Source: Vicinamibacteraceae bacterium
Lineage (GTDB): Bacteria; Acidobacteriota; Vicinamibacteria; Vicinamibacterales; JAFNAJ01
Assembly: GCA_023384595.1 (NCBI GenBank)
Contig: JAHDVQ010000018.1
Coordinates: forward strand, 1 to 42,969
Reading direction: 5' to 3'
DNA length: 42,969 nt
Of this stretch, positions 23,821 through 39,115 are shown piece after piece. The notes below the pieces were generated by a model, which had not been told where the DNA came from, made no database searches, and saw only the letters and a program-made list of their open reading frames with translations. Each line of letters opens with the position of its first letter. The first letter of the stretch is position 1. The position numbers and the translations under genes are program-made.

Positions 23821-26800
23821 TCAATCAGGTGAGTTCCGGATCGCCTCGAGCGCCGTCGCGGGAAGGAGCGGGAAGTCGGAAAGCACGCACGCCGTTTCTT
23901 CTGGCGTGAGGCGTGCGAGGCGGAGGACCTCGCGCTGCAGCGCGATGTACGGGCGGCTCTCGAACAGCGAAGCTCCGCCGTGGCGCGATGCGCCGCTCAA
24001 CCGGCGCGCGAGGCTGGCGAGCGTCTTCGCCACCGCGGATCCGGGCACGACCCACGGCAGCGGTAGCGCCTCGACGATGGCCGTCGTGACGTGCGACGAC
24101 ACGCGGCGCCGCACCAGGTAGTTGGCCAGCAGGCTGTTCAGCAGCGCGCACAGGACCCACGCCGGTTCATCGTCCTCGCGCGGGTCCAGGCAGAACAGCG
24201 TGTGCGTCGAGAGGGTGGACGAGGGGAGCACGGCCGCAATGAGCGTGAGCTGGTTGGTCGGCGAGGCCACGTCACGGTAGGCGAGTCTCGGCCGTCGGGC
24301 ACGCTCCGCCAGGCGCGGGCGCCGGTCGAGCGCCGCGGCGTCGATCCAGCGACGAGCCGCGCCGCGCTCGACGCGGAACGGGTGGACGTCCTTGCCGTCG
24401 AGCACGGGCCATCCCCTGGCGGCTCCGTTGAAGAGGGCACGGTCGTCCGAGGCGTTGAGCTCGCGTCCGAAGCGGGCCCCATATCCCGTCGAGTCTCCGA
24501 GCCGCGGATGCTCGACTGCCAGACGCTCGAGGAGCCGCGCGCCCACCTCGTCACGCACGTCGGGTACGGACAGGTCGGGCCCCGAGACGCGCCGTAGCCA
24601 GCCGAGCGACAGCGTGAGCGGCCACGCCGTCCGGTCGCCTCCCGCATCGGGCACGGCGTCCAGGGGTGTCGTGGTCGTCAGCCCCAGGCGCGCCGGTACC
24701 AGGCGCGCCCCGGCGTCGTCGGCCGGCATCGCGTGGGCGCGGGGTTTCGCGGCAGTGAACACGGCGAACCGTACGCCACGGTGAATAGGGAAGAGCCCAT
24801 GGCGGTTGTCGAACGACACGACGCCGTCGACCGTGTGGCGCGCGAACAGCGCGTGCCTCAACGGGCCGCTGCCGGCGTCGGCGAGCAGGCCCCACGGCAC
24901 GACGAGCCCCAGCCGGCCGTCGGGCGCGACCAGGTCGAGCACTCGATCGACGAAGAGCTGGTACTGATTGGCGTGGCCCTGGCGGCAGTGCGGGAAGCGG
25001 CCCGACTCGCGCGCGTAGCGCACGACCAGCGCGGGCGACGCCGGCCCGTGCGTCCGCCCGTCGTCGGCGCGGAGCATGTCCCAGGGCGGATTCCCGAGCA
25101 CCGCGTCGAATCCCGCGCGCTCGCGCCACGCCCCGTCCTCGTCGAAATAGACTTCCGGGAACTCGAGATCCCAGTGGAAGTACCGGAGGGCGGCCGCGCA
25201 CGCCTCGGTGTGCCGCCGGATTGCTTCGCAGGTGTCGGGGCCGAGACCCGACGCGCGCCCGAGCCAGTGGTCGCCGTACGCGCGGTAGGACGCACCACGC
25301 GGCGGCGGCGAGCCATCGTCCCAGAACCAGGCCGACACCCACGCGTCGGCCATCGCGCGCCAGGCCGCGCGCAGGCCGCCCTCGCCATCGAGGGCCGCCA
25401 GTTGCCGCTGCTTTGCCGCGACATCCCCTGGCGTCAGCTCGGGCTGGCGCGCCAGGCCGTGGCGCACCCGCACGATCCCGGGGAGCGTCACGCCGAGGTC
25501 GTCGAGAGGTAGCGTCGGCGCTCCCCGCGCGTCGAGCCGCCCGGGTGAGGGCGCGCGGGCGAGATCGGCGAGACGGGCCCCGAGCAGGCTGTTGCCGCAA
25601 CGCAGCCGGTGATCGAGAAACGTCAGCGGCTTCGTCCCCGCCAGCGTCGTGAGCCACAGCGAGAGGCGCGCCAGCTCGACGGCACGGGGATTCAGATCGA
25701 CCCCGTACAGGCAGCGCTGCGCCACCAGACGCCTGAACCCGCCGCGATCGGCCTCGGTCAGGTCGCCGGGGCGCACGCGCCCCTCGTGCACAAGAGCGGC
25801 CTCGTAGGCCTGCGCGATGTAGCGGCACGCCCCCACCAGAAACGCCCCGCTCCCCATCGCGGGATCGAGGACGCGAAGCGTGAGAATGTCGTCGCTGGTG
25901 CGGCCGCTCATGAGCGGCGCCAGCGTGCGGCGCACGAGGAAGGCCGTGATGGCGGCAGGCGTGTAGAACGACGAGGTCGCCTTGCGCGCCGACACGGCCG
26001 CGTGTCGTTTGTCAGGCGGGTCCGCCGCGCGGTCGCTGCCGAGAGGCCAGTCCTCGAGCACGCGCTCGTAGATGGCGCCGAGCTGCTCGACGCCGAGGTC
26101 GGCGTAGTCGAAGCGGACGACGGAGGGGCGTCCGCGTGCGCGATACGTGGCGAGCGCCCGCACCGCGATGGCGGCCTCGCCGTCGTCCAGCGTCGCGCGC
26201 TCGCTCGCCGGAGCCGACGCGGGAGAGAAGAGCTGGCTGTCGTAAGCGGTCACCCGCAGCGTCCCCGCACGGCAGCCGCGGTCGGCCAGGCGCGAGGTCG
26301 CCTTCAGCATGGCCCACAATCCGCGCGGCGGCGCGGCGGCGGCGCGCTCGACGGCCGACTGCATCGAGTAGTGTGCGCGGAAAATCGGATGCCACAGCGG
26401 TGCGAGCCCGGTGGCCTCGACATAGAGCAGGAACAGCAGCCGGTAGACCAGCGTGAGCGCCTGCTCCGCAAGTGGCGGCTCGTGCGGCCGGGCCGCGGTC
26501 GCCCGTGCGAGCGCGCGACCGAAGGCGACCAGCGCCACGCGCACACCGTCGTCGAGCGCGCGGTGCGTGGTGGCGCGATGGGACTCGGATTCGCTGACGA
26601 GCCGGTCGATGGAGCACGGCCTGCCGGGCCGCGCGAGCAAGGCGCCCGCCCACCCAACCGCGACGAGGCTCACCCCCTCGGACCGCTCGGAGACGACGCG
26701 CCCGAGGTCGACGACATGGGCAAGGCGGCTCCACGCTCGCTCGGCGTCGGTCACGAGCCATGTGCGCCCGTTGGTGGCCAGCGCGAACCGCGACCCGGCG

Positions 26801-27159
26801 TCGAGCGCGGCCTGAATCAGCCGGCGCCATTCGGCGTGGGGGTTGCCGCCGAACGGCAGCACCGCGAGCGGGACCTCGGGGCCGGCCTGGTCCGCGGCTC
26901 TCGCCAGCAACCACCATGTGCCCCGCTCGTCGATGCGCTCGCGCTCGACGATGAATCCCAGGAGGCGGGCGAGCGGCACGGCGAGCAGCGTCGCGACCGT
27001 TCCGGCGCCCGAGGCTGGTCCGAGTTGCGCCGATGCCCGGCTGCAGAGCCGGCGCAGGCGGTCCACGGTGCGGTCGAGGCGTGCGGCATCCATCCGCCCG
27101 CGCATGACGCTCTCGAGACGGCGGGCGACGAAGTCCGACGACAGCAGCGGGGCGATCAT
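23821..27159 (-). CDS. Eco57I/type IIG-like N6-adenine DNA methyltransferase
   Basis: An 1112-residue DNA modification protein. SAM-binding motif I is LDPAMGSGAFLVG (around residue 430), followed by YGVDLNPRAVELARLSLWL. The catalytic motif IV is VLGNPPWDML (around 688), the NPPY/W class of N6-adenine methylases. The C-terminal region has the TaqI-like specificity appearance, ending in a SHVTTAIVEALPLPWV type segment. The N-terminal ~200 residues resemble the nuclease-like domain of type IIG enzymes (LATNGRTWLVTDAERAW), but I cannot find the D...ExK triad: the strand where ExK is expected reads VPLAVLPFGGNP. It overlaps the upstream helicase gene by four bases (ATGA). It probably belongs to a defence module. 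Confidence 0.85.
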   Translation of the reverse strand: MIAPLLSSDFVARRLESVMRGRMDAARLDRTVDRLRRLCSRASAQLGPASGAGTVATLLAVPLARLLGFIVERERIDERGTWWLLARAADQAGPEVPLAVLPFGGNPHAEWRRLIQAALDAGSRFALATNGRTWLVTDAERAWSRLAHVVDLGRVVSERSEGVSLVAVGWAGALLARPGRPCSIDRLVSESESHRATTHRALDDGVRVALVAFGRALARATAARPHEPPLAEQALTLVYRLLFLLYVEATGLAPLWHPIFRAHYSMQSAVERAAAAPPRGLWAMLKATSRLADRGCRAGTLRVTAYDSQLFSPASAPASERATLDDGEAAIAVRALATYRARGRPSVVRFDYADLGVEQLGAIYERVLEDWPLGSDRAADPPDKRHAAVSARKATSSFYTPAAITAFLVRRTLAPLMSGRTSDDILTLRVLDPAMGSGAFLVGACRYIAQAYEAALVHEGRVRPGDLTEADRGGFRRLVAQRCLYGVDLNPRAVELARLSLWLTTLAGTKPLTFLDHRLRCGNSLLGARLADLARAPSPGRLDARGAPTLPLDDLGVTLPGIVRVRHGLARQPELTPGDVAAKQRQLAALDGEGGLRAAWRAMADAWVSAWFWDDGSPPPRGASYRAYGDHWLGRASGLGPDTCEAIRRHTEACAAALRYFHWDLEFPEVYFDEDGAWRERAGFDAVLGNPPWDMLRADDGRTHGPASPALVVRYARESGRFPHCRQGHANQYQLFVDRVLDLVAPDGRLGLVVPWGLLADAGSGPLRHALFARHTVDGVVSFDNRHGLFPIHRGVRFAVFTAAKPRAHAMPADDAGARLVPARLGLTTTTPLDAVPDAGGDRTAWPLTLSLGWLRRVSGPDLSVPDVRDEVGARLLERLAVEHPRLGDSTGYGARFGRELNASDDRALFNGAARGWPVLDGKDVHPFRVERGAARRWIDAAALDRRPRLAERARRPRLAYRDVASPTNQLTLIAAVLPSSTLSTHTLFCLDPREDDEPAWVLCALLNSLLANYLVRRRVSSHVTTAIVEALPLPWVVPGSAVAKTLASLARRLSGASRHGGASLFESRPYIALQREVLRLARLTPEETACVLSDFPLLPATALEAIRNSPD

Positions 27160-29402
27160 CGTGGTGCGTATGGCACGCGGACAACGAGCCGCGTGTCGCT
27201 GTCGACGAGGAGGGCCTGGACGTGCGCGTCCGGGGTCACCGCCCCGGACGGTGGCGCGTCCTCGAATCCGAACAGCGAGGGCTGCCTCGCACCGGCCCGC
27301 GCACGCTTCCGCAGACTCGCCGCCAGTGCCGCCCGGCGCGGCGGCTCAGGGCCGGGCATCGCCGTCCATCGCGGACGAGGCACCGGCTGGTCAACCGGCT
27401 CGCACGAGAGCGTCCGCGCGACGAGGTAGCCGTCGGTGCGGCGTACGGTGGTCTGCACGACCGCGACGTCTCGCCCCCCAGGCGCGCGGCGACGGCCCGC
27501 GAAGTGGGGGATGGCCGCCGCGTCCACGCCGCCTCCGCGGCCCTCGCGCTGCCACTGGCGCCTGGCGCGCCGCTGCTGTTCGAGATCGGCAGCGGCCAGT
27601 GCGGCCGCGCGCTCGAGCGCTGGAGAAGGTCTCAGCTGCTCGCCCTGCGCGGTAACCGGACCGTCTGCTCGACCGGGATCCATCGCCGAGTCCGCCGCCT
27701 CCGCGCGCTCGAGGAGGCGTCCGTATTGCGCCCGGTCGACGCGCTCGCGGTAGACCATCGTCATCACGTGGACGGTGCGCGTCTGGCCGAAGCGATCGAC
27801 GCGCCCGGCGCGTTGCTCGACCCGGCGCGGCGACCACGGGACGTCCAGATGCACGACGAGCCTGGCGCGCTCGTGGAGGTTCAGGCCCTCGGCGCCGATG
27901 TCGGTGGTGAGCAGGACCCGCGCGCTCCCGTCGAGGAAGGCGCGCAGCGCCGAGGCACGGTCGGCCGGCGCCATCGCGCCGCTCATCGCAACCAGCGGGA
28001 CGCGCCCCGCGAGCCCCAGCCAGCACGCGCTCAGCGTGTCGCGATACTCGGTGAAGACCACGGCGGCGTCGGGAGCGGCGCGCCGGAGCAGGTCGGCGAG
28101 CCTCGCGATCTTGCGGTCGTCGCGCGCGGCAGTGACACCGGCCAGGCGCAGGCGCGAGAGCCAGGCTCGCTCCCGCGGCCACGGGGTGGGCGAGGTCGTG
28201 CCGACGATCTCGTCGCGCTCCTCCTCGTCGGCGCAGGACGCGGACTCGTCGAACAGCGCGAGCTGCGTGACGACGGGCGCCGCACGGTGCCGAGCCTCCA
28301 GCAGCTCGAGGCGGCGCGAAACGGTCCGCACGAACGCGGCCGCCGACGAGCGTGCCCGCCTGCGGAGGATGCCGGCCAGCAGCTCGACGGCCCCGCCTGC
28401 CGTCGCGGGCAGTACCACGCTCAGGTACTGCTCGAGCACCGCGAAGAGATGCGCGGTCGCGGCCGAGGGCCCCAGCATCAGCGTGTGCGTGCGGCGTCCA
28501 CGCGCCAGGCGAAGCTGCTCCCGCGTGCGGTGAAAGCACATGATCGGGTCGTGCGCGGCAAGCCGTCCCGTGGCGAGCAGGCGCGCGGCCGTGTCGTCGC
28601 GGCCATCGTGCGGCGTTGCCGTGAGCAGCAGCAGCCACTCGGCCGCGCGGCCCAGCGCGTCGGCCGCCGATCGCCGGAAGGTGGGCCGCGTGGCGTGATG
28701 GGCCTCGTCGATGACGACCACGTCCCACGCGACGCCGGTTGCGCCGTGGAGCACGTGAGGCTGCTTGATGAAGTCGAACGACGCGATGCGGCAGCCCTCG
28801 AGGGTCCACGGGCTGGTGCCGTGCGGCAGCGCGGCCGCCTGGCGGGCGAGCCAGCCGGCGTCGCAGACCTCCGCGTCGACGGCGAGCTTTCCCCGCAGCT
28901 CGCCGATCCACTGCGCGACCAGCATCGAGGGGCAGACGACGAGGGCGCGCAGCCGTCCACGGCGCAGCCACGCTTCACGAACGGCGAGCCCCGCCTCGAT
29001 GGTCTTGCCGAGGCCGACCGCATCGGCGACCAGCACCCGTGACACCTCGCCGCCCAGCAACGCGACGAGTGGAGCCAGCTGGTAGTCGACGATGTCGATG
29101 TCGAGGTGGACGGGCGCCAGCGGACGGCACGGCGCGCAGGCCTCCGTTCGCAGGGCCAGCCACGTCCTCCTGGCGTGACGGCGCGACGCCCGCCTGACTC
29201 GTGCCGGAGCAGGCGTGATGTCTTCGACGGCAGCCACGAGCGTGCACGCGGCCGCGCGCCCGGCAGGCGGGGCGAGGTCGACGAGCGCGTCGGCATCGCC
29301 GTCTCCGACAGGCCTGAGGCGCTCGACGATCCAGGCCTCGTCCCTGACGAGCACCCGGGCTCCTGGCACGAGCCCGTGCGGCGGGGATGGCGACAGTGGC
29401 AT
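27156..29402 (-). CDS. SNF2/DEAH-type superfamily 2 helicase, partner of the methyltransferase
   Basis: A 748-residue SF2 ATPase. Motif I is VADAVGLGKTIEAGL (Lys133), motif II VVVIDEAHH (~229-236), motif III LLLLTATPHDGR. In the C-terminal RecA lobe are VVFTEYRDTL, TTDIGAEGLNLH (motif V) and QRAGRVDRFGQTRTV (motif VI). These match SNF2/RapA-like helicases paired with DNA methylases in restriction-type and DISARM-like loci. ATG 29402 is chosen because GGAG lies seven bases upstream and the protein then starts just before the family's N-terminal domain; an open frame continues upstream to 29501. No DrmA, DrmB or DrmC homologue, and no nuclease gene, is adjacent. Confidence 0.82.
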   Translation of the reverse strand: MPLSPSPPHGLVPGARVLVRDEAWIVERLRPVGDGDADALVDLAPPAGRAAACTLVAAVEDITPAPARVRRASRRHARRTWLALRTEACAPCRPLAPVHLDIDIVDYQLAPLVALLGGEVSRVLVADAVGLGKTIEAGLAVREAWLRRGRLRALVVCPSMLVAQWIGELRGKLAVDAEVCDAGWLARQAAALPHGTSPWTLEGCRIASFDFIKQPHVLHGATGVAWDVVVIDEAHHATRPTFRRSAADALGRAAEWLLLLTATPHDGRDDTAARLLATGRLAAHDPIMCFHRTREQLRLARGRRTHTLMLGPSAATAHLFAVLEQYLSVVLPATAGGAVELLAGILRRRARSSAAAFVRTVSRRLELLEARHRAAPVVTQLALFDESASCADEEERDEIVGTTSPTPWPRERAWLSRLRLAGVTAARDDRKIARLADLLRRAAPDAAVVFTEYRDTLSACWLGLAGRVPLVAMSGAMAPADRASALRAFLDGSARVLLTTDIGAEGLNLHERARLVVHLDVPWSPRRVEQRAGRVDRFGQTRTVHVMTMVYRERVDRAQYGRLLERAEAADSAMDPGRADGPVTAQGEQLRPSPALERAAALAAADLEQQRRARRQWQREGRGGGVDAAAIPHFAGRRRAPGGRDVAVVQTTVRRTDGYLVARTLSCEPVDQPVPRPRWTAMPGPEPPRRAALAASLRKRARAGARQPSLFGFEDAPPSGAVTPDAHVQALLVDSDTRLVVRVPYAPR

Positions 29403-29444
29403 CGTGCACTCCGTGGCAGCCAGTGCCATACGGCGAGCGATGCG

Positions 29445-29463
29445 GTACGCAGTGGCTGCGTAC
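29445..29463. repeat. Inverted repeat upstream of the helicase-methylase operon
   Basis: GTACGCAG and CTGCGTAC form perfect 8-base arms around TGG, 43 bases upstream of the helicase start. It could be an operator or an RNA hairpin in the leader. The 7-base core GTACGCA/TGCGTAC recurs in the longer repeat at 34175-34202. The rest of the 29403-29587 gap shows no gene I can support. Confidence 0.6.
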
Positions 29464-29587
29464 GGCAGGGCCTGGCGGTGTCGATCGCGATGCTGTGGCA
29501 AGGCCCGTACCGTGCGCGTCGTCTGGTGGCAGGCAGGTATGCGGGCGCCGGAGGAGCGCTGTGGCCAGCGCAGCGGTGAGCGCGACC

Positions 29588-30436: not shown

Positions 30437-30736
30437 ATGGCCGAAGCCAGGAAGATGGGGAAGACGCAGCTCTTCGCCCACTTCGCCGACAAGTTCGAGA
30501 TGAAGCGTACCCAGGTACGCGAGGTGTTCGACGAGCTGGCCGCGCTTGCCGAGAAGGAGCTCAAGAAGACGGGCGAGTTCACCCTTCCCGGCATGGTCAA
30601 GCTGAGTGTCCAGAAGCGGAAGGCGCGGATGGGCCGCAACCCCGCCACCGGCGACGCCATCAAGATTCCCGCCAAGACCGTCGTCAAGGCGCGCATCCTC
30701 AAGCAGATGAAGGATGCCGTGCTGCCGCGCCGGTAA
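30437..30736 (+). CDS. HU/IHF-family DNA-binding protein
   Basis: A 99-residue histone-like protein that bends and compacts DNA. The two N-terminal helices (KTQLFAHFADKFEMKRTQVREVFDELAALAEKEL, quoted in part for identity as KTQLFAHF and VREVFDEL) dimerise. The beta arm is FTLPGMVKLSVQKRKARMGR, followed by the tip GRNPATGDAIKIPAK, including the conserved NPxTG with its intercalating proline, and by VVKARILKQMKDAVLP. GAGGGGG lies six bases before the ATG. The strong upstream promoter fits an abundant nucleoid protein. HU alpha/beta versus IHF cannot be decided from one copy. Confidence 0.93.
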   Translation: MAEARKMGKTQLFAHFADKFEMKRTQVREVFDELAALAEKELKKTGEFTLPGMVKLSVQKRKARMGRNPATGDAIKIPAKTVVKARILKQMKDAVLPRR

Positions 30737-30805: not shown

Positions 30806-32584
30806 CTACTCCGTCACCTTTACCGTCGCCGTCGCCGGTTCCTCCACGGGCCTCAGCGGACGCTTCTCCGTGGTCGGGAACTCGATGATGAACGTCGTGC
30901 CGTCGTTCACGCGGCTCTCGGCGGCGATGGTCCCGTCCAACTGCTCCACGATCTTCTTGGAAATCGGCAGGCCCAGGCCGAGCCCCCGCCGCTTGGTGGT
31001 CACGAAGTCCTCGAAGATGGCCGACAGCCGCTCGGGCGGGATCCCGCAGCCCGTGTCGGAAATCCTGATGCGTGCGCGCGCCCCCATCTCCGCGGCCTCG
31101 ACACGGATGGTCCCGCCGGGGGCGGTCGCCTGGATGCCGTTCAGGATGAGATTACGGTAGACGCGGCCGAGCGCGAAGACGTCGCCCTCGATGAAGACCG
31201 GCTGCTCGGGCCCGCGGTACTCGAGCGCGACGCCGGCGGCCTCGGCGAATCCGCGCATGCTCTCGACAATGTCCGCCACCGAGCGGCCGACCTCGATCGG
31301 AAACCGCTCGAGCGGGATCGGGCGCGCGAGGTTGCGCAGGTCCTCGAGGACCCGCCGCACGGAGGACAACTCGCGCTCCACCGTCCGCCGGAATGTCTCC
31401 CGGTACTCCTTGTCGTCGTACATCTTCAGCATCAGGCGGCAGTTGTTCCCCACGTTCTGGATGGGGTGCGCGAGATCGTGGACGAGACCCGCCGCGATGC
31501 GCCCGAACATCGCCTGCCGCTCCTGACGCCTGGCCTCGGCCTGCAGCGCGACGAGGCGGTCGGCCATGCTGTTGAAGGCATCGCCCAGTCGGCCCAGCTC
31601 GTCGGTGCGCGCGATGGCGACACGCGTGTCCATCTGGCCCTGCGCCAGCGCCTCGGTGCCGCGCATCAGCGCGCGAACCGGCGTGATGATCGACCGGCCC
31701 CACCAGTAGCCGGCGCCAATGGTCAGCAGCAGCGCGAGCGCGATGGCGACCAGCAACTGCCGCTCGAGGCGCGTCGCCAGCGCGTAGGCCTCGTCGGTGG
31801 GCTGCTCCAGGATGAGCGCCCATGCCAGCGAGGGCAGCGGCACGCCCACCGCCAGCAGCCGCTCGCCCTCGGGGCTGTCGTATTCGGTGGCGCGCGGCGC
31901 GCGCGCCGTCGCCGAGAGCGTGTCCTTCGTGAGCGGGTGCCAGAGCGCATCCTCGCCGCGGGCGATGCGCGACTTCTGGTCGGGATCGCCGTGGGCGATG
32001 AGGCGCCCCGACGGATCGACGAGCAGCGCGTAGCCGCGCGTCCCGACCCGGATGCTGTCGACGAGGCGCCAGATCTCCTCGAGGCGCAGCTCGCCGACGA
32101 GCACGGTCGGGCCGTCGGCGCCCTGGATCCTGACCGCGACGCTCGTGCGCGGCAGCAGGTCGTCGTCGATCTGGATCGGCGCCAGCGCGACGCCCAGGGC
32201 ATCGAACTCACCCAGCGGCGGGGGCGCCGGCACGTCGTCGTTCAGCCGGCTGGTGGCGATGACCTCGCCGGTGAGGGTGTACGCGGTGATCGTCCTGAAT
32301 TCGGGAAACGCCAGCACGTAGCTCCGCAGCACGCGCTCACGCTGCCAGGGCAGGAGCGAGAGGGCTTGCAGCTCGGCGGCCGCCTGCCTCAGTGCGCGGA
32401 CGTGGTGGGCGATCGACTGCTCGATCTGCGAGGCCGCGCGCACCGCGAGCTGTTCGGTTCCGGCAGCGACGGAGGTGCGCGTCGCGCGGCCGAGCGTGCT
32501 CACCGACACCAGTCCGTATGCAACGAGCGGCAGCACCGCCGCCGTGGCCACGAGCATCGCGAGTCGGGCCCTGATGCCGCTCAT
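30806..32584 (-). CDS. Membrane sensor histidine kinase with large extracytoplasmic Cache-like domain
   Basis: A 592-residue kinase. TM1 is at 8-28 and TM2 at 278-297; between them lies a ~240-residue periplasmic domain with double-Cache features (FRTITAYTLTGEVIATS, GYALLVDPSGRLIAHGD). A HAMP domain follows (~298-350), then the phospho-acceptor region GLVHDLAHPIQN (His369) and an HATPase with SDTGCGIP and GLGLGLPISKKIVEQ. The HATPase and the H-box region resemble NtrB/DctB-like kinases, which pair with sigma54 activators. ATG 32584 is used because it forms an ATGA overlap with the stop of the substrate-binding protein gene; an open frame further upstream is a shadow. The nearest candidate partner regulator is at 36149-37549. 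Confidence 0.93.
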   Translation of the reverse strand: MSGIRARLAMLVATAAVLPLVAYGLVSVSTLGRATRTSVAAGTEQLAVRAASQIEQSIAHHVRALRQAAAELQALSLLPWQRERVLRSYVLAFPEFRTITAYTLTGEVIATSRLNDDVPAPPPLGEFDALGVALAPIQIDDDLLPRTSVAVRIQGADGPTVLVGELRLEEIWRLVDSIRVGTRGYALLVDPSGRLIAHGDPDQKSRIARGEDALWHPLTKDTLSATARAPRATEYDSPEGERLLAVGVPLPSLAWALILEQPTDEAYALATRLERQLLVAIALALLLTIGAGYWWGRSIITPVRALMRGTEALAQGQMDTRVAIARTDELGRLGDAFNSMADRLVALQAEARRQERQAMFGRIAAGLVHDLAHPIQNVGNNCRLMLKMYDDKEYRETFRRTVERELSSVRRVLEDLRNLARPIPLERFPIEVGRSVADIVESMRGFAEAAGVALEYRGPEQPVFIEGDVFALGRVYRNLILNGIQATAPGGTIRVEAAEMGARARIRISDTGCGIPPERLSAIFEDFVTTKRRGLGLGLPISKKIVEQLDGTIAAESRVNDGTTFIIEFPTTEKRPLRPVEEPATATVKVTE

Positions 32585-34182
32585 CGCGCCGCGGTCTCCT
32601 GCGGCGCGACACGCCAGAGCGCCACGTTGCTCACGATGTCGCGATCGCCGTCGCCCGCCACCACGAAACGGCGGTCGACGGCGCGGGTGATCCGGCTCCA
32701 GCAAAGGAAGATGCCGGGCGGATCGTCGCCGAGCGCGCGGTCGACCTCGACGAGCGCCCGCTGGACCTCCTCGTCACCTCGCGCGCGCCGCAGCCGATCG
32801 AGCGAGGCGTCGGCGCCGCGATAGCTCGAACGGATCGGCACCGCGCCGTCGGCTTCCGGCGAGTGCCAGAACCAGTACGGCCACGTGAAGCCGTGTCCCG
32901 ACGCGATATCCAGCAGGTAGGCCTCGAACTGACCCGTCGCCAGGCGGCGCGCGAGCGCGGCGCGCGCGACCGGCTCGACGATCATGTCCACCCCGATGTC
33001 GGCGAGCTGCTTCTGGACCACGAGCGCGAGACGCTCGTAGAGGGGGTAGTCGGCGGGGATGAGGCAGGTGAAGCGCAGCCGGCCCGGCGGGCGCATGTCG
33101 GTACCGGTCAGGCGCGTCGGCGGATAGCCGGCGCGGTCGAGCAGCGCGACGGCCAGTGCCGGCTCGTGCACCGGCGGGCGTCGTGCCCGGCCGGCCATGG
33201 CCCAGTGCCGGGGCCAGATGTGCGACGAGGCGGCCTCCCCGCGGCCGCCCAGCGCGCGGTCGATGACGAGCGCGCGATCGATGGCGACGTTGAGCGCCTG
33301 CCTGACGCGCCGGTCGGCAAACGGCGGGTGCGCCAGGTTGAAGCCCACCAGATACGCGTACGGTCTGAGGAACGAGAACTCGCGCGCGTTGGTGCCGGCC
33401 GCGAGGAATGCGGCCGCGTCGGGCGTCGCCTCGTAGAGGAAGTCGATCTCGCTCCGGAGCATCGCGCTCCAGGCGGCGCGAGGCGTGGGGAACGACAGCA
33501 GCACCACACGGTCGATCGACGGATGCCCGCGATGGTAGCCCGCGAAGGCGCGTAGCTCGAGCCGCCCCTCGTCGCGCGTGTCGACCATGAAGGGGCCGGC
33601 CTCCTGGTCGAAGTTGGGCCCGCCCGAGACCCGCACCAGCGCCAGGCCCTCGAGGAGCATCGATGAAGGAGCGGCCAGCGTCAGCGCGAACGTCCTGGGA
33701 CCCGTCGTCTCGACCTTCACGATGTCGCGCAGTCCAGGCGACACCCCCATCGGTCCAGGCGCGCGCGAGGCGTCGACAATCGACGCCACTTCGGTGGCCG
33801 TGACCGCCGAACCATCGTGGAAGGTCAGATTGGGCCTGAGGTGGAATCGCCAGCGGAGACCGTCGCTCGTGACGTCCCACGCCTCGACCAGTCCGGGACC
33901 GACTCGCCCGTCGCGCCCGATCGCGACGAGCGACGCGTGGCCGAGGAGCGCCGCCACGCTGGCGAGCGAGGTATCGCTGCCCCCGTCGGGTGGTTGCGCC
34001 ACGCCGACGCGAAGGGTCACGGGAGATGGCGGCGCCCCGGCGTCACGCTGCGCCTGGCAGGCTCCGGCGAGCGCTCCGGCCAGCATCAGCCCGGCGCACG
34101 CGAGCCTGGCCGCCACAGCCGAGGGTCCGGCGGACGATGCGGCGACCGCCGCGCGACGGAAAAACCAGCGGGGGGTACGCAC
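32581..34182 (-). CDS. Family-5 (oligopeptide/nickel-type) extracellular solute-binding protein, orphan
   Basis: A 533-residue SBP_bac_5 protein that captures oligopeptides or similar ligands outside the cytoplasm. Signatures include LVEAWDVTSDGLRWRFHLRP (in parts), NLTFHDGSAVTATEV and the later FADRRVRQALNVAIDR. The N-terminus ends in LAGALAGAC, an imperfect lipobox, so it is probably a lipoprotein. The first GTG, 34182, lies in the 3' arm of a perfect 10-base inverted repeat; an in-frame GTG at 34116 gives a cleaner lipoprotein signal (20 residues to the Cys) and is a serious alternative. No permease or ABC ATPase is nearby. Instead the stop overlaps the ATG of a sensor kinase, which suggests a sensory rather than transport role. 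Confidence 0.88.
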   Translation of the reverse strand: MRTPRWFFRRAAVAASSAGPSAVAARLACAGLMLAGALAGACQAQRDAGAPPSPVTLRVGVAQPPDGGSDTSLASVAALLGHASLVAIGRDGRVGPGLVEAWDVTSDGLRWRFHLRPNLTFHDGSAVTATEVASIVDASRAPGPMGVSPGLRDIVKVETTGPRTFALTLAAPSSMLLEGLALVRVSGGPNFDQEAGPFMVDTRDEGRLELRAFAGYHRGHPSIDRVVLLSFPTPRAAWSAMLRSEIDFLYEATPDAAAFLAAGTNAREFSFLRPYAYLVGFNLAHPPFADRRVRQALNVAIDRALVIDRALGGRGEAASSHIWPRHWAMAGRARRPPVHEPALAVALLDRAGYPPTRLTGTDMRPPGRLRFTCLIPADYPLYERLALVVQKQLADIGVDMIVEPVARAALARRLATGQFEAYLLDIASGHGFTWPYWFWHSPEADGAVPIRSSYRGADASLDRLRRARGDEEVQRALVEVDRALGDDPPGIFLCWSRITRAVDRRFVVAGDGDRDIVSNVALWRVAPQETAAR

Positions 34183-34202
34183 GGCTCGAAATCCGTGCGT
34201 AC
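34175..34202 (-). promoter_or_regulatory. Perfect 10-base-arm hairpin covering the binding-protein start
   Basis: GTACGCACGG and CCGTGCGTAC are separated by eight bases. On the transcript the stem comes 48 bases after the small-peptide stop and contains the GTG at 34182 in its 3' arm. A run of C, then GGUUUUU, follows about 10 bases later, so it could be a leaky terminator, a processing/stability element for the upstream message, or a block to ribosome loading. The 68-base gap holds nothing else. Confidence 0.75.
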
Positions 34203-34250
34203 TCTACCCGGAACACGCCGGCGGCGCGAGGGCGGCCGGCGCGTCATCCA

Positions 34251-34358
34251 CTATCGGGGCGTCTTCTGGTTCACCGGTTCACTCGGGTAGTCGATGAGCC
34301 ACGGGCATCCGACGGGAGGCCGCGAACTGGACGGGGACCTGACGATGAGAACCTTCAC
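34251..34358 (-). CDS. Candidate RiPP precursor peptide, 35 residues
   Basis: A short frame starting with GTG at 34358, overlapping the TGA of the radical SAM gene in a GTGA junction, and ending TAG at 34251-34253. It begins MKVLIVRSP, has a Ser/Pro/Arg-rich middle, and ends in an aromatic-rich, proline-punctuated segment (GCPWLIDYPSEPVNQ, then KTPR). The C-terminal part contains one each of Cys, Trp and Tyr plus Asp, Asn and Lys, residues commonly modified by SPASM maturases. About 80% of third codon positions are G or C, consistent with real coding. I do not recognise the family. Support is positional: coupling to the maturase and a strong hairpin immediately after. No leader/core cleavage motif such as double glycine is seen. 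Confidence 0.55.
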   Translation of the reverse strand: MKVLIVRSPSSSRPPVGCPWLIDYPSEPVNQKTPR

Positions 34359-35794
34359 GATGCTGCCCCTTTCTGTTGCGCCGCCACTTCCAGGGCGTGC
34401 GCGACGAGCGCCGATTCAAGGCTGGCCTTGTGACACGCCGGCGCGTGCATGTCACCCAGTTCGTGGTGCGCGGCCACCGTGCAGCCGCCGGCACACACCG
34501 GGACGAAGCTGCAGTCGCCGCATCGCTTCCAGGCTTCGAGACGTTCGAAGGCGGCGGCGGTAGCCGCCGCGGCCTCGCGCGCGATGTGCCCGGTGGTCAT
34601 GGCGGCTTCGCCCGCGAAGCCCGGGCAGGCATAGAGGTCGCCCGTGGGGCCGATGGTGTAGGCGTGCCGCTTGTGGATCTCGCAGGGACCCATGTGCAGG
34701 CCGTCGGGCGTCGGGAACCCGCGGCGCTTGATGTCGCGGCGCAGCCCGTCGAGCGCCTCGTCCACGAAGTGACACGAGTCGCACGGAGATGGGGACCGGC
34801 CCCCCGCGGCGAAGCCCGGGCCGGACGCCGTCGCGCAGGCGCCGCCAATCGGACGGCCGTCGGCATCGACGGGCGTGAGCGTCAGCCGTCGTGGCGTGGC
34901 TGGAGCGGCGGGTGCGGTCTGGCGCCCGATGACAGGCTTGAACGACACCTTGGCGATCGACGGTGCGAAGTCCTGCGCGGCGAGGAAGTCCAGCAGCGCG
35001 GGGAAACTCGCGGCCGACTCGGCGTCGAAGTTGCCGCCAATCGTGATCCGGCAGCGGTCGGCCACGGCGGCGATGTTGCGGATGATCCGGTCGAAGGTGC
35101 CCTGGCGGCCGCGGAGGGGGCGCATCCGGTCGTGCGTCGCACGGTCGCCGTCGAGGGTGACCTTCACGCCGTTCAGCCCCAGCGGGGCGAGCCGATCGAC
35201 GACCTCGGGCGAGAGCAACAGCCCGTTGGTGATGATGTTCAGGAGCTGCGTCACGCCGCGGGCGCGCGTGGCGGTCCAGAGCCGCTCGGCGAGCGTGTAG
35301 ACGGCGGGCAGGTTCAGGAGCGGTTCCCCGCCGAAGAAGGTCACGACCAGGCGTTCGGGCGACACGGCGTCGAGCCGCCGTTCGATCCAGTCCGCCACCC
35401 GCGCGGCCGTTTCGACCGACATGCGCGCGGCGTGGGCGTTGTGGTCGCCGTGATCGCCCTGGATGCAGTAGTCGCAGGCGAAGTTGCACTGCAGGGTGGT
35501 GAGCACGGTGACTCGCAGCTCGGTGCTGTCGTCACGGAAGGCCGCGAAGTGAGCCTCGAGCCGCGCCGCGTCGGCTTCGGTCCCCGGGGTGAGAAACCCG
35601 TGGGCCTCGAGCGCGGCGAGGGCGTCGCGCTCCTCGGCCCTCAACTGGTCGGCTTCGACCGACCCGGACGTGACCCGGTCGACGAGAGCCACGACGTCCG
35701 GCGAGACGAGGGCCTCGGCGTCGGTCAGCGTGTTCATGAGGAACACGGCGTCGCCCTCGAGGGGCACCGCGACGGTGAACCGGGATCTCTGCAT
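34355..35794 (-). CDS. Radical SAM/SPASM peptide maturase
   Basis: A 479-residue enzyme that uses reductive cleavage of SAM to modify a peptide. The N-terminal ~90 residues (FTVAVPLEGDAVFLMNTLTDAEALVS...) look like the PqqD/RRE-type recognition region of such maturases. The [4Fe-4S] motif CNFACDYC (Cys103, 107, 110) follows, then FFGGEPLLN and NIITNGLLLS in the TIM barrel. The C-terminal SPASM domain has CGDCSFVPVCAGGC (Cys425, 428, 434, 438) and a later Cys454; additional Cys residues (CDSC, GPCEIHKRH, YACPGF) fit auxiliary clusters. ATG 35794 is preferred over 35872 because a sigma54-type promoter at 35849-35863 would place transcription start between them. The gene is followed without a gap by the 35-residue ORF. 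Confidence 0.92.
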   Translation of the reverse strand: MQRSRFTVAVPLEGDAVFLMNTLTDAEALVSPDVVALVDRVTSGSVEADQLRAEERDALAALEAHGFLTPGTEADAARLEAHFAAFRDDSTELRVTVLTTLQCNFACDYCIQGDHGDHNAHAARMSVETAARVADWIERRLDAVSPERLVVTFFGGEPLLNLPAVYTLAERLWTATRARGVTQLLNIITNGLLLSPEVVDRLAPLGLNGVKVTLDGDRATHDRMRPLRGRQGTFDRIIRNIAAVADRCRITIGGNFDAESAASFPALLDFLAAQDFAPSIAKVSFKPVIGRQTAPAAPATPRRLTLTPVDADGRPIGGACATASGPGFAAGGRSPSPCDSCHFVDEALDGLRRDIKRRGFPTPDGLHMGPCEIHKRHAYTIGPTGDLYACPGFAGEAAMTTGHIAREAAAATAAAFERLEAWKRCGDCSFVPVCAGGCTVAAHHELGDMHAPACHKASLESALVAHALEVAAQQKGAAS

Positions 35795-35848
35795 GGGGCG
35801 CCTGTCGATGTCGCGTCCGGCCCGCGAGCCGGCGCACGCGCAGGGTGA

Positions 35849-35863
35849 GCAATCGACGTTCCG
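35849..35863 (-). promoter_or_regulatory. Sigma54-type (-24/-12) promoter of the maturase operon
   Basis: On the minus strand CGGAACG, four bases, then TTGCT reproduces the -24/-12 pattern: GG at 35862-35861 and GC at 35850-35849, exactly ten bases apart, differing from TGGCACG-N4-TTGC at two positions. Transcription should start near 35838, about 43 bases before the maturase ATG. The gene immediately upstream encodes a sigma54-dependent activator. Confidence 0.65.
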
Positions 35864-36148
35864 ATGCGGCACTGTCGGATTTCCGACTGCACAGCCCGCA
35901 CAGCCCCGCCGATTGCGCGCCTGTTCGCAGCGATCTCAATCGGCAGAGGCTGGGAATCCTTGAGCTAGGACCCTAGAATTGGTGTGACAGATTATGCAAT
36001 CGAGTGGCGGGCCGAAGGTGGCAGAAAATCCGACATCACGTGTGCGGAGTGTGCGGAGGGTCGAACTGCCATCCCCCCTCTGTCGGGAGGCTGACGCTTC
36101 GCGCGACCTCGAGTCGAGCCGGGTCGGCGCCTTGGGGCAGAACGGAAC
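35864..36148. promoter_or_regulatory. Upstream control region between NtrC-type regulator and maturase
   Basis: This is most of the only gap longer than 300 bases in the window (35795-36148). It holds a perfect inverted repeat GTCGGA-TT-TCCGAC (35874-35887), tandem GCACAGCCC (35889-35906), CTAGG-AC-CCTAG (35965-35976), a TAGAAT on the plus strand (35974-35979) and tandem TGTGCGGAG (36041-36058). The heptamer TGTGCGG/CCGCACA occurs three times (36041, 36050, and inverted at 35896). Such repeats 35-200 bases upstream of a sigma54 promoter are candidate enhancer sites. No convincing gene is present. Confidence 0.5.
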
Positions 36149-37549
36149 TCAGCTCTGGCCCTGGCCGCCGTATTCGCGCAGGCGGCGGGCCACCTCGCGG
36201 ATGTCGAGGCGCGCCATGCGGTGCTTCAGGGTCGAGAGCGGGATGCCCAGGTCGCGAGCCGTCGCCGTGACGCTCCAGTCGCAGCGCTCGAGCGCGCGGA
36301 TGATGAACGTGCGCTCGAAGGCCGCCATGGCCCGGTCGAGCACGCTCGACTCGTCGTCGGTCGCCGTGGCACGCGCAATCTGCAGTTCGACGGGGATGTC
36401 CTCGAGGTCGATGTGCCCGCTCTCGTTGATGGCCACGAGCCGCTCGATGAGGTTTTCGAGCTCGCGCACGTTCCCGGGCCACCAGTAGTCCTCGAGCACC
36501 TTCAGCGCGGCCTCCGACACGCCGGAGATCGGCCGGCGGAACCGGATGCTGTAGCGTCGGACGAAGAAGTCGACGAGCTCCGCAATGTCCTCGACGCGTT
36601 CCCTGAGCGGCGGCATCCGCACCGGAATCACGTTGATGCGGTAGTACAGGTCCTCGCGGAACCGGCCCTCGCGCACGGCGCGATCGAGATCGACGTTGGT
36701 GGCGCAGATCAGGCGGAAGTCGGTCCGGATGGCCTTGCGGCCGCCCACGCGCTCGATCTCGCCCTCCTGGATCGCGCGCAGCAGCTTCGACTGCAGGTCG
36801 GTCCTGAGGTCGCCAATCTCGTCGAGGAAGAGCGTCCCGCCCGAGGCGAGCTCGAACTTGCCGACCTGCTGGCGCACGGCCCCCGTGAACGCACCCCGCT
36901 CGTGTCCGAAGAGCGCGCTCTCGGTGAGCTCGGACGGGATGGCCGACAGGTTCACCGGAATGAACGGCCCGCTGCGGCGGGGCGACTCGCGGTGGATCAT
37001 CCGTGCCAGCAGCTCCTTGCCCGTGCCGCTCTCCCCGAGCACGAGCACCGTCGCCGACAGGCCCGCCACCTTGTGCATCAACTCGAGGGCCGCCCGGATC
37101 GCGGGGCTCGGTCCCGCCACGAACTCGCGGTCGTCTTCGGCCACCTGCGCCTCGAGCGCCTGCACGCGTCGATTCAGATCCTGGCGCTCGCTCGCCTTCG
37201 AGACCAGCGACCTGAGCGCGTCGTACTCGAAGTCCTTCGTGATGTAGTGGTAGGCGCCGAATTTCATGGCCTGGACGGCCGTCTCCACCTCGCTCACCGC
37301 CGAGATGACAATCACCTCGATCTGCGGCGCCTGGTCCTTGACGATCTTGAGCATCTCGAGGCCGTTCATCCCCGGCAGGCGCACGTCGAGCAGCATCAGG
37401 TCCACGCGCTCGTGCTTGACGACGGGGAGGGCCGCCTCGGCGCTGGCCGCGGCCACCACCTGGTAGTCGTGGCGCAGGATGGCCGTCAGCGTGTCGCGCA
37501 TCCCCTCATCGTCGTCGACGATGAGGATGGTCTTGGCGGGGGTGGTCAT
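36149..37549 (-). CDS. NtrC-family sigma54-dependent response regulator
   Basis: A 466-residue activator. The receiver domain has VDDDEG and phospho-acceptor Asp55 (LMLLDVRLPG), with Lys at YITKDF. The central AAA+ domain has Walker A GESGTGKE (172-179), the sigma54-contacting GAFTGA loop intact at 219-224, Walker B GGTLFLDEIGDL and RFREDLYYRINVIPVRMPPLRER. The C-terminus has a Fis-type helix-turn-helix (WSVTATARDLGIPLSTLKHRM). ATG 37549 starts the protein at MTTPAKTILIVDDDE; the open frame continues far upstream, antisense to lpd and the E2 gene, and is not coding there. A TAGAAT box lies 20 bases before the ATG. It is the natural partner for the kinase at 30806-32584. Confidence 0.95.
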   Translation of the reverse strand: MTTPAKTILIVDDDEGMRDTLTAILRHDYQVVAAASAEAALPVVKHERVDLMLLDVRLPGMNGLEMLKIVKDQAPQIEVIVISAVSEVETAVQAMKFGAYHYITKDFEYDALRSLVSKASERQDLNRRVQALEAQVAEDDREFVAGPSPAIRAALELMHKVAGLSATVLVLGESGTGKELLARMIHRESPRRSGPFIPVNLSAIPSELTESALFGHERGAFTGAVRQQVGKFELASGGTLFLDEIGDLRTDLQSKLLRAIQEGEIERVGGRKAIRTDFRLICATNVDLDRAVREGRFREDLYYRINVIPVRMPPLRERVEDIAELVDFFVRRYSIRFRRPISGVSEAALKVLEDYWWPGNVRELENLIERLVAINESGHIDLEDIPVELQIARATATDDESSVLDRAMAAFERTFIIRALERCDWSVTATARDLGIPLSTLKHRMARLDIREVARRLREYGGQGQS

Positions 37550-37693: not shown

Positions 37694-39115
37694 GTGGCCA
37701 GCGAATACGATCTGATCGTGATTGGTGCGGGGACCGGCGGCTATGTGGCCGCCATCAGGGCCGCGCAGCTCGGGCTCAAGGTGGGGGTGGTCGAGAAGGC
37801 GCCAACGCTCGGCGGCACCTGCCTGAACTGGGGCTGCATTCCGACAAAGGCCCTCCTCGAGCACGCGCACGCCTGGAAGATCGTCCAGCAGGCCAAGGAG
37901 TGGGGCATCGGCCTTGGCGGCAGCCCGACGCTCGACATGGGCCGGGTCCACGAGCGGAAGCACAAGATCGTCAAGGGGCTGACGTCGGGCGTCGCCTTCC
38001 TGTTCAAGAAGAACAAGATCGACTGGATCAAGGGCACGGCGCGGCTGCTCGGCGCTGGCGCCGTCGAGGTGACCCCGGCCGAGGGCGGCTCGACGCAGAA
38101 GGTGAGTGCCCGCGAGATTCTCATCGCGACGGGCTCGTCGGCGCGCAGCGTGCCCGGCATCGAGTTCGACGGGACGCGCATCATCTCGAGCGACGAGGCC
38201 CTGGAGATGAACCCCGTGCCGCGCTCGATCGTGGTGATGGGCAGCGGTGCCGTCGGCGTCGAGTTCGCTTCGCTCTTCCACTCGCTGGGGAGCAGCGTCA
38301 CGCTCGTCGAGCTGTTGCCGCGGCTCGTGCCGAACGAGGACGAGGCCGTGTCGGCGGAGCTCGAGAAGAGCTTCAAGAAGCGGAAGATGAAGGTGCTCAC
38401 GGGCACCAGGGTGACGAGCGCGAAGAACACGGGCGAGGCGGTGGAGCTGACGGCGGAAACCGGCGACGGCAAGACCGAGACGTTCTCGGCCGACTACCTG
38501 CTCGTCGCCACGGGCCGCGGGCCGGTCACGGGCGGTCTGGGCATCGAGGAACTGGGCCTTGCGATGGAGCGCGGCTACATCAAGGTCGACACCGCCTACC
38601 GCACGTCGGTCGAGGGCATCTCGGCCGTGGGCGACGTCATCACCCTTGGCGACCGCGTTCACCCGCAGCTCGCGCACGTCTCGTCGATGGAGGGCATCGT
38701 CTGTGCCGAGCGCATTGCCGGCCGCGAGTGGCACCCCATCAACTACGACCACGTGCCGGCGTGCACCTACTGCGACCCCGAGATCGGGAGCGTGGGCCTC
38801 ACCGAGGCCGAAGCGCGCGAGCGCGGCTACGACGTCATCGTCGGCACCTTCCCCTTCGGCGTGCTCGGCCGCGCCAAGATCGCCCACGAGACCGAGGGCT
38901 TCGTGAAGATCGTCGCCGAGAAGAAGTACGACGAGATGCTCGGCGTGCACATGATCGGGCCGCGCGCGACCGAGCTCGTCGCCCAGGCGACGCTCGCGCT
39001 GAGGCTCGAGTGCACGGTCGAGGAACTGGTGCGAACCATCCACGCCCACCCGACCATGTCGGAAGCCGTGGCCGAGGCGGCGCACGCCGCGCACGGCGCC
39101 GCCATCCACCTCTGA
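37694..39115 (+). CDS. lpd: Dihydrolipoyl dehydrogenase (E3)
   Basis: A flavoenzyme that reoxidises dihydrolipoyl groups of 2-oxoacid dehydrogenase complexes with NAD. The 473-residue length is standard. The FAD dinucleotide fold is IGAGTGGYVAA (11-16), and the redox-active disulfide is Cys43/Cys48 in GGTCLNWGCIPTK. The NAD-binding motif is GSGAVGVEFASLFHSLG, the second FAD segment is SAVGDV, and the C-terminal HAHPTMSEAVAEA carries the catalytic His-Glu pair. The start is GTG with a GGGAG six bases away. The E2 gene starts 10 bases after the stop, so the two subunits share an operon; no E1 gene is in the window. Confidence 0.97.
   Translation: MASEYDLIVIGAGTGGYVAAIRAAQLGLKVGVVEKAPTLGGTCLNWGCIPTKALLEHAHAWKIVQQAKEWGIGLGGSPTLDMGRVHERKHKIVKGLTSGVAFLFKKNKIDWIKGTARLLGAGAVEVTPAEGGSTQKVSAREILIATGSSARSVPGIEFDGTRIISSDEALEMNPVPRSIVVMGSGAVGVEFASLFHSLGSSVTLVELLPRLVPNEDEAVSAELEKSFKKRKMKVLTGTRVTSAKNTGEAVELTAETGDGKTETFSADYLLVATGRGPVTGGLGIEELGLAMERGYIKVDTAYRTSVEGISAVGDVITLGDRVHPQLAHVSSMEGIVCAERIAGREWHPINYDHVPACTYCDPEIGSVGLTEAEARERGYDVIVGTFPFGVLGRAKIAHETEGFVKIVAEKKYDEMLGVHMIGPRATELVAQATLALRLECTVEELVRTIHAHPTMSEAVAEAAHAAHGAAIHL

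Follow-up and report, generated by a model that had tools for sequence, protein, structure and literature searches.

Genes and features of the locus

The window, i.e., the whole stretch of 42,969 nucleotides (nt) analyzed here, corresponds to contig 91 in an assembly of 4.8 Mb and 500 contigs from a Vicinamibacteraceae bacterium. Its minus strand carries, in this order, genes for an NtrC-type response regulator (RR), a radical SAM/SPASM peptide maturase (MAT), a peptide of 35 amino acids (aa), a solute-binding protein (SBP) and a sensor histidine kinase (HK), which together may form a self-sensing peptide circuit. Such a circuit had been proposed in an earlier note on this DNA; the elements, order, strand and overlaps given there were all confirmed where stated, and each element recurs in place in relatives. 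The four genes from MAT to HK are referred to below as the block or module. The features, with the evidence for each, are as follows.

36149..37549, minus strand: RR, NtrC-type sigma54 activator, 466 aa (Pfam Response_reg, Sigma54_activat and HTH_8; active-site comparison)
35848..35864, minus strand: -24/-12 (sigma54) promoter-like element TCGGAACGTCGATTGCT, 5′ of MAT (recurrence of its core upstream of homologues)
34355..35794, minus strand: MAT, radical SAM/SPASM peptide maturase, 479 aa (Radical_SAM; invariant cysteines; best NCBIfam match TIGR04280)
34251..34358, minus strand: putative precursor peptide, 35 aa, with C18PWLID23 (homologous open reading frame in other loci)
32581..34182, minus strand: SBP, orphan solute-binding protein, 533 aa (SBP_bac_5, 202.8 bits)
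30806..32584, minus strand: HK, dCache-HAMP-HisKA-HATPase sensor kinase (Pfam, predicted fold, PDB matches)
30437..30736, plus strand: HU-type DNA-binding protein, convergent, right border of the block (PF00216, 79 bits; listed open reading frame, the real start may be further in)
37694..39115, plus strand: dihydrolipoamide-dehydrogenase-like protein (LPD), divergent from RR, left border (Pyr_redox_2, Pyr_redox_dim; the border stretch recurs in relatives)

The RR of the window has the GAFTGA motif and an intact set of receiver residues (D12, D13, D55, S83 and K105). The first base of TCGGAACGTCGATTGCT lies 70 nt upstream of the MAT ATG. The peptide reading frame starts with GTG and overlaps the stop codon of MAT by 4 nt, which is also the length of the overlap between HK and SBP. 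A strict search for terminators between peptide and SBP gave a hit in locus L015 alone (1 of 47 loci; reverse-strand control 0), and a simple scan of the same gap, which found two in L026, was negative for L051 and for the window. Scanning the window for Rfam families and for tRNAs gave no match.

In MAT, C103, C107 and C110 (CX3CX2C) as well as C371, C390, C425, C428, C434, C438 and C454 are invariant in all 26 aligned homologues. The C-terminal set has what we take to be the SPASM pattern, and it is on these cysteines that the SPASM assignment of the earlier note was upheld, though the Pfam SPASM model PF13186 has no match anywhere on the contig. The best NCBIfam match, TIGR04280, reaches 245.1 bits with a cut-off of 400 and is matched by all 26 homologues. 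Among solved structures 5wgg, presumably CteB, matches best (104.9 bits).

Of the 50 loci in which 150 nt or more follow MAT, 48 have an intact homologous peptide frame, 47 recognized by pattern plus that of L032 (25 aa, intact, below the pattern length). The peptide of L050 has two in-frame stops and the core of the L015 peptide is gone. The pattern is roughly MKI-x-V-I/V-KK...KP...C-P-W-x-x-D/E...KK. At position +5 from the cysteine, 50 of 53 distinct Cys-bearing copies have Asp (35) or Glu (15), with Thr, Ala and Cys once each (L006 and L007 are left out as copies of L008 and L048). Five loci hold several Cys-bearing copies, and in L009, L014, L017, L018, L027, L029 and L060 an extra, Cys-less peptide (..PWLVDVxx[DE][HN]..) lies between MAT and the Cys-bearing one. 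L011 has five copies, one with Ser replacing the Cys. An alignment of 40 peptides, near copies omitted, gave no credible NCBIfam family match; the best scores, which were rejected, were those of AgrD (0.0015, 1 of 40), ArsI/CadI (0.028, 1), methanobactin (0.13, 3) and MBL hydrolase (0.16, 1).

SBP has a cysteine, Cys42, following a hydrophobic stretch, that is invariant in 28 of 28 sequences, and is read as a putative lipoprotein. Its model has the full family-5 fold (mean predicted local distance difference test score 88), with NikZ, AppA, AapF and opine binders as fold neighbours. The kinase scores 37.1 against dCache_1, under the Pfam cut-off of 45; predicted fold and PDB matches are those of a double-Cache protein, in agreement with the Cache-type kinase noted earlier. 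As judged from these sequences, an SBP without its own permease, coupled to a predicted periplasmic-sensor kinase, is the architecture of a three-component system.

Conservation, probable loss and receiver decay across relatives

A maturase search of species genomes yielded 57 loci, 56 with this kind of maturase; L064 (Bacteroidetes, off target) was excluded throughout. The loci are mostly titled Acidobacteria, some Vicinamibacterales, and three titled Acidimicrobiia (L031, L039, L041), probably misnamed, were retained. All 49 loci with 1.8 kb or more of 5′ sequence have RR ahead of MAT. SBP and HK lie downstream in 38 of 38 loci having at least 3.6 kb of 3′ sequence; their genes overlap in 26 of these 38, and the gap is at most 22 nt in 36.

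Among 193 genomes of the class, MAT was found in 66, the module SBP in 63 and the HK sensor in 72; 60 have all three and 117 have none. The module SBP was separated from paralogues at a gap between 301.7 and 251.3 bits, a cut chosen by the analyst. Of the 66 genomes with MAT, 61 hold the SBP and 62 the HK. Those with MAT and without SBP (G051, G060, G064, G065, G067) or HK (G051, G064, G067, G069) look cut by contig ends according to coordinates, and fetched sequence confirmed this for G064 only. Ten genomes have HK without MAT: in eight, HK (or SBP) stands at a contig end, and two are decayed remnants. In one remnant (G054) SBP, MAT and peptide are gone, HK is split in two frames and RR is intact; in the other (G175) the start of RR adjoins a partial HK. 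The earlier note had named co-occurrence of maturase and peptide with the SBP-HK pair across species as a check, which the loci passed, and none was found with an intact pair lacking MAT and peptide, or the reverse. In 396 genomes of the phylum, relatives of MAT outside the order score at most 112.5 bits and 19 inside it at least 535.8 bits. One genome, G142, has two MAT genes (contigs C97 and C198), each with RR on its own contig, and possibly holds two modules.

RR is present in 97 of the 193 genomes, 35 of which lack MAT. From these, 31 MAT-less RR loci were fetched, and 30 hold both RR and HU; the HU end is absent from L166. The HU border query was an opposite-strand frame of the HU gene, so that the right stretch was found and its identities are meaningless. 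RR directly adjoins HU in 29 of the 30 block-less loci (distances between match ends run from -10 to 192 bp); in L140 the two are separated by genes that were judged Tad-pilus-like by eye. Hence MAT, peptide, SBP and HK occupy the interval between RR and HU all together or not at all.

Absence of the block is accompanied by changes in the receiver of RR. Where the block is present, 52 of 53 RRs keep the quintet DDDSK (D12, D13, D55, S83, K105); where it is absent, 5 of 30 do. D55 is altered in seven block-less RRs (to Glu in three, Gly in two, Thr and Ala in one each). The RR of the decaying locus L106 has K105N, and that of L038 reads VEDSR despite the presence of the block. Mean pairwise identity of the receiver is 0.70 with and 0.52 without the block, and the other domains do not show such a fall (AAA+ 0.76 vs. 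0.75; helix-turn-helix 0.69 vs. 0.74). GAFTGA or GSFTGA is retained in all 84 RR rows. The decay of the receiver active site where the block is missing, with the AAA+ domain unaffected, supports the kinase-regulator pairing of the earlier note and makes HK the probable normal partner of RR. In the module-less RRs of L156, L160 and L161 the altered phospho-acceptor D55 is Glu. An Asp to Glu change at this position can mimic phosphorylation in other regulators.

A tree of RR, built from AAA+ and helix-turn-helix only and rooted at the midpoint, has block-bearing rows on both sides of the root and requires eight block changes, three of them forced by starred branches. Read by eye as losses, six of the eight have fully decayed receivers, one is mixed and one intact. 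This pattern suggests that the block is probably ancestral in the order and was lost repeatedly.

Control regions and a likely second target

The sigma54 promoter noted earlier before MAT was borne out by its homologues, as 49 of 52 loci have the core GG-N-A-N6-TTGC ahead of MAT, compared with a mean of 0.9 and a maximum of 3 in 30 shuffles. Besides this core, 39 of the 52 contain a palindromic enhancer-like element, CGGCCAA-N4-TTGGCCG, with a score of 14 bits or more (shuffles: mean 0.07), an in-sample count since the matrix was fitted on the same sequences. Exact palindrome words, which are not in-sample, occur in 17 loci (shuffles: at most 3). Shuffles were dinucleotide shuffles, or plain where these failed, and L048 was excluded from the promoter set. 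Spacings between enhancer and promoter cluster near 96, 177 and 197 nt, and the distance between paired enhancer sites is 21, about 80 or about 100 nt.

The block of the window (30806-37549) has no enhancer site of at least 7 bits. Two inverted repeats, GCCGATTG...CAATCGGC (35944-35908) and GTCGGAAATCCGAC (35887-35874), are mere candidates for this role. Sites of the type GGCCAAGATCTTGGCC in the window's genome were not counted as enhancers; they have other surroundings and resemble dispersed copies of a palindromic repeat. The sequence recurs on contigs C391, C431 and C28 of this genome (G000), in pairs 21 bp apart on C391 and C431, and one of the C431 copies has a single-base difference.

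In 24 genomes, 30 exact enhancer sites were found, five of them in module promoters. Of the 23 non-module regions 20 were fetched, and 11 of these adjoin a gene for a secreted subtilase and/or a divergent SBP_bac_5 gene, the latter lying beside BPD_transp_1 permeases where checked. Scored with the matrix, 47 of 49 genomes with RR have the enhancer ahead of the subtilase, i.e., 27 of 28 with the block and 20 of 21 without it, and the count is still 36 of 38 when the 11 genomes found via the enhancer are removed. The scored rows number 68 of 74 loci, as five had no subtilase match and G112 too little upstream sequence. Among RR-negative rows, 8 of 19 have the enhancer, representing seven genomes (G074 twice). 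RR may be missing from these assemblies, because all of the genomes except G082 belong to families having RR. For family f11, in whose genomes RR was not found, the count is 0 of 9. A strict sigma54 pattern lies within 900 nt upstream of the subtilase in 17 of 49, a figure with no shuffle control and with distances that do not always fit. Several enhancer-linked subtilases (L184, L190, L191, L192, L198, L200) carry C-terminal tandem repeats of [IV][IV]W[GST][DSN], for example TIVWGS, QIIWGD, TIVWSD and SVVWTN; the genomes concerned include both some with the peptide block and some lacking it.

RR is not dedicated to the loop, which corrects the earlier reading: many genomes have RR and no block, and a likely site of RR is also present at this protease/peptide-uptake locus.

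Elsewhere in the window, a 2353-aa open reading frame (12936-19997, plus strand) fuses AsmA/TamB with POTRA and Omp85, i.e., TamB and a TamA-like protein in one chain. At 23821-29501 (minus strand) lies a DISARM-like pair, an Eco57I-type methylase (DrmMI, 274 bits) beside a SNF2-type helicase (DrmD, 204 bits); these are the best PADLOC models for the two proteins.

The proposed circuit, its rivals and known systems

Whether the peptide could be the ligand of SBP was approached through partial rank correlations between distances, with permutations that ignore phylogeny. In 29 loci, the peptide core (+1 to +10 of the Cys) covaries with SBP after correction for MAT and LPD (0.28, a value reached in 0 of 1000 permutations), and it covaries with MAT (0.41); there is no covariation for the first nine residues (SBP 0.03, MAT 0.10). 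In 35 loci, with a core from -3 to +7 and with RR and HK as covariates, the values are 0.23 for SBP (0 of 500), 0.27 for MAT and -0.27 for RR. Because of the joint loss and of this covariation between core and SBP, self-sensing is the best reading, and we infer that the modified peptide is the ligand of SBP.

The block would then be a module through which a signal made by the cell itself is fed into a sigma54 regulator of older origin. MAT would modify the peptide, probably by linking the conserved Cys to the Asp/Glu at +5 through a thioether, and the modified core would leave the cell. SBP would bind this core and present it to the dCache kinase, which in turn would phosphorylate RR, a step supported by the co-decay described above. 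Phosphorylated RR, bound at paired CGGCCAA-N4-TTGGCCG enhancers, would fire the sigma54 promoter of MAT and the peptide, closing a positive loop. In many genomes it may also fire the subtilase beside the oligopeptide transporter, which would put protein digestion under population control. It is rather probable that the product, a ribosomally synthesized and post-translationally modified peptide (RiPP), is an autoinducer sensed by SBP and HK that controls its own synthesis and protein digestion. This suggests that cells listen to their own peptide to time protein digestion.

A number of observations weigh against this circuit. The stretch from -8 to -1 of the peptide, which does not covary with MAT, covaries with SBP (0.35; 0 of 1000), yet its value with the housekeeping protein LPD is higher (0.52), and in the 35 loci the core covaries with HK too (0.21). 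Neither an exporter nor a leader peptidase is encoded in the block, where there is no room for one; the search did not extend to the rest of the genome. RR persists in block-less genomes, with an intact active site in the five loci mentioned above, and an independent-pairs test on well supported branches had just three pairs (median p 0.25). On the side of control, the enhancer is unrecognized in 13 of the 52 module promoters, including that of the window and its relatives L005 and L007. The genomes of these two relatives (G003 and G001, of the window's family) have the enhancer at the subtilase and none at the module. In the window's own genome neither this enhancer at the block nor the protease branch was found, and the subtilase has no close relative there (best 112.6 bits). 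The 30 exact sites compare with 31 for the reversed pattern, so the number of sites is no evidence; the evidence is their location. Finally, nickel chelates, opines and sialic acid are also among the ligands of solved proteins with the SBP fold, and the predicted fold does not settle whether SBP belongs with the peptide binders or with the nickel and opine binders.

Some of these facts are expected if the locus encodes a nutrient system, in which SBP senses oligopeptides released by the subtilase and HK and RR induce protease, uptake and a RiPP with another role. Several of the closest solved relatives of SBP are peptide binders, the likely second target of RR is a protease adjoining an oligopeptide-type transporter, and the block contains no exporter. 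Such a sensor should at times persist without the RiPP, however, and the 10 genomes with HK and without MAT contain no intact case; the covariation between core and SBP is a further point against this explanation, which we regard as unlikely while giving it real weight. If SBP and HK instead sensed an unrelated ligand (a metal chelate, sugar or opine) that calls for the RiPP, for instance as a metal-binding or protease-modulating compound, the nickel and opine binders among the closest folds would be accounted for. A precedent is the chitooligosaccharide-binding protein of Vibrio, which controls the kinase ChiS (PMC8449061). Neither the covariation nor an enhancer shared with the protease/oligopeptide-transporter locus is predicted by such a ligand, and the idea seems improbable. 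Shared descent alone, with neighbours held together by slow rearrangement and no joint function, would fit the recurrence of the borders LPD/E2 and HU and a block that looks ancestral. It would not lead one to expect that four genes are jointly absent on several branches with RR and borders remaining (29 of 30 block-less loci), or that the receiver alone diverges, and we give it very little credence.

Acidobacteriota are abundant in soil. If the proposed circuit is true, a candidate signal, its receptor and an output, extracellular protein breakdown, are found in one place, and a RiPP is at hand whose neighbours suggest its function. The repeated absence of the block together with receiver decay would be a natural experiment in which a two-component pathway is unplugged and the regulator lives on. 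In a broader sense, the locus would represent RiPP quorum sensing in a Gram-negative order, with a modified peptide acting through an orphan SBP on a dCache kinase to drive a sigma54 operon and a secreted protease; this is proposed tentatively, at slightly less than an even chance. That same tentative grade covers, jointly with it, what this interpretation adds, namely a detachable module and an RR receiver that is no longer phosphorylatable once the module is lost.

Literature searches on Acidobacteriota with RiPP or radical SAM listed no such signalling system (quorum sensing of the group at large was not searched). In the library searched, no account was found of a radical SAM enzyme together with a solute-binding protein, a histidine kinase and a RiPP, or joining radical SAM, oligopeptide-binding protein, two-component and signaling peptide, and nothing was found joining geopeptide with radical SAM. 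In its accessible part, a biosynthetic-cluster survey covering Vicinamibacterales and radical SAM does not describe the system.

The single pieces are known, i.e., ranthipeptide-type maturases, SBP-kinase systems and radical-SAM quorum peptides of Gram-positive bacteria. MAT shares its radical SAM/SPASM architecture with CteB and PapB. Its best family match is the geopeptide maturase, below cut-off, and the peptides have no credible NCBIfam match. They have the Cys-Xn-Asp/Glu trait of ranthipeptide precursors, and MAT stays below the PapB family cut-off (118.3 vs. 340 bits). PapB forms Cys-Asp/Glu thioethers in C-X3-D/E and accepts C-Xn-D with n from 0 to 6 (PMC9413430). Its precursor has six such motifs of the form C-X3-D/E, whereas the peptides described here have one motif each, C-X4-D/E. 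Radical-SAM peptides have been tied to cell-density signalling in the case of the SCIFF ranthipeptides of clostridia (PMC8102284) and of streptide under Rgg (PMC8326336). These have Gram-positive hosts and other regulators, and the accessible parts of both papers describe no SBP-kinase receptor.

The receptor side resembles another group of systems. In LuxP/LuxQ, a binding protein acts on a sensor kinase, with AI-2 (autoinducer-2) as ligand. An extracytoplasmic binding protein likewise acts on a sensor kinase in CuaD/CuaSR, with cellobiose as ligand (PMC10384115), and in CBP/ChiS, with chitooligosaccharide (PMC8449061). All three are like the present locus in their SBP-kinase design, whereas here the proposed ligand is a RiPP encoded in the same block.

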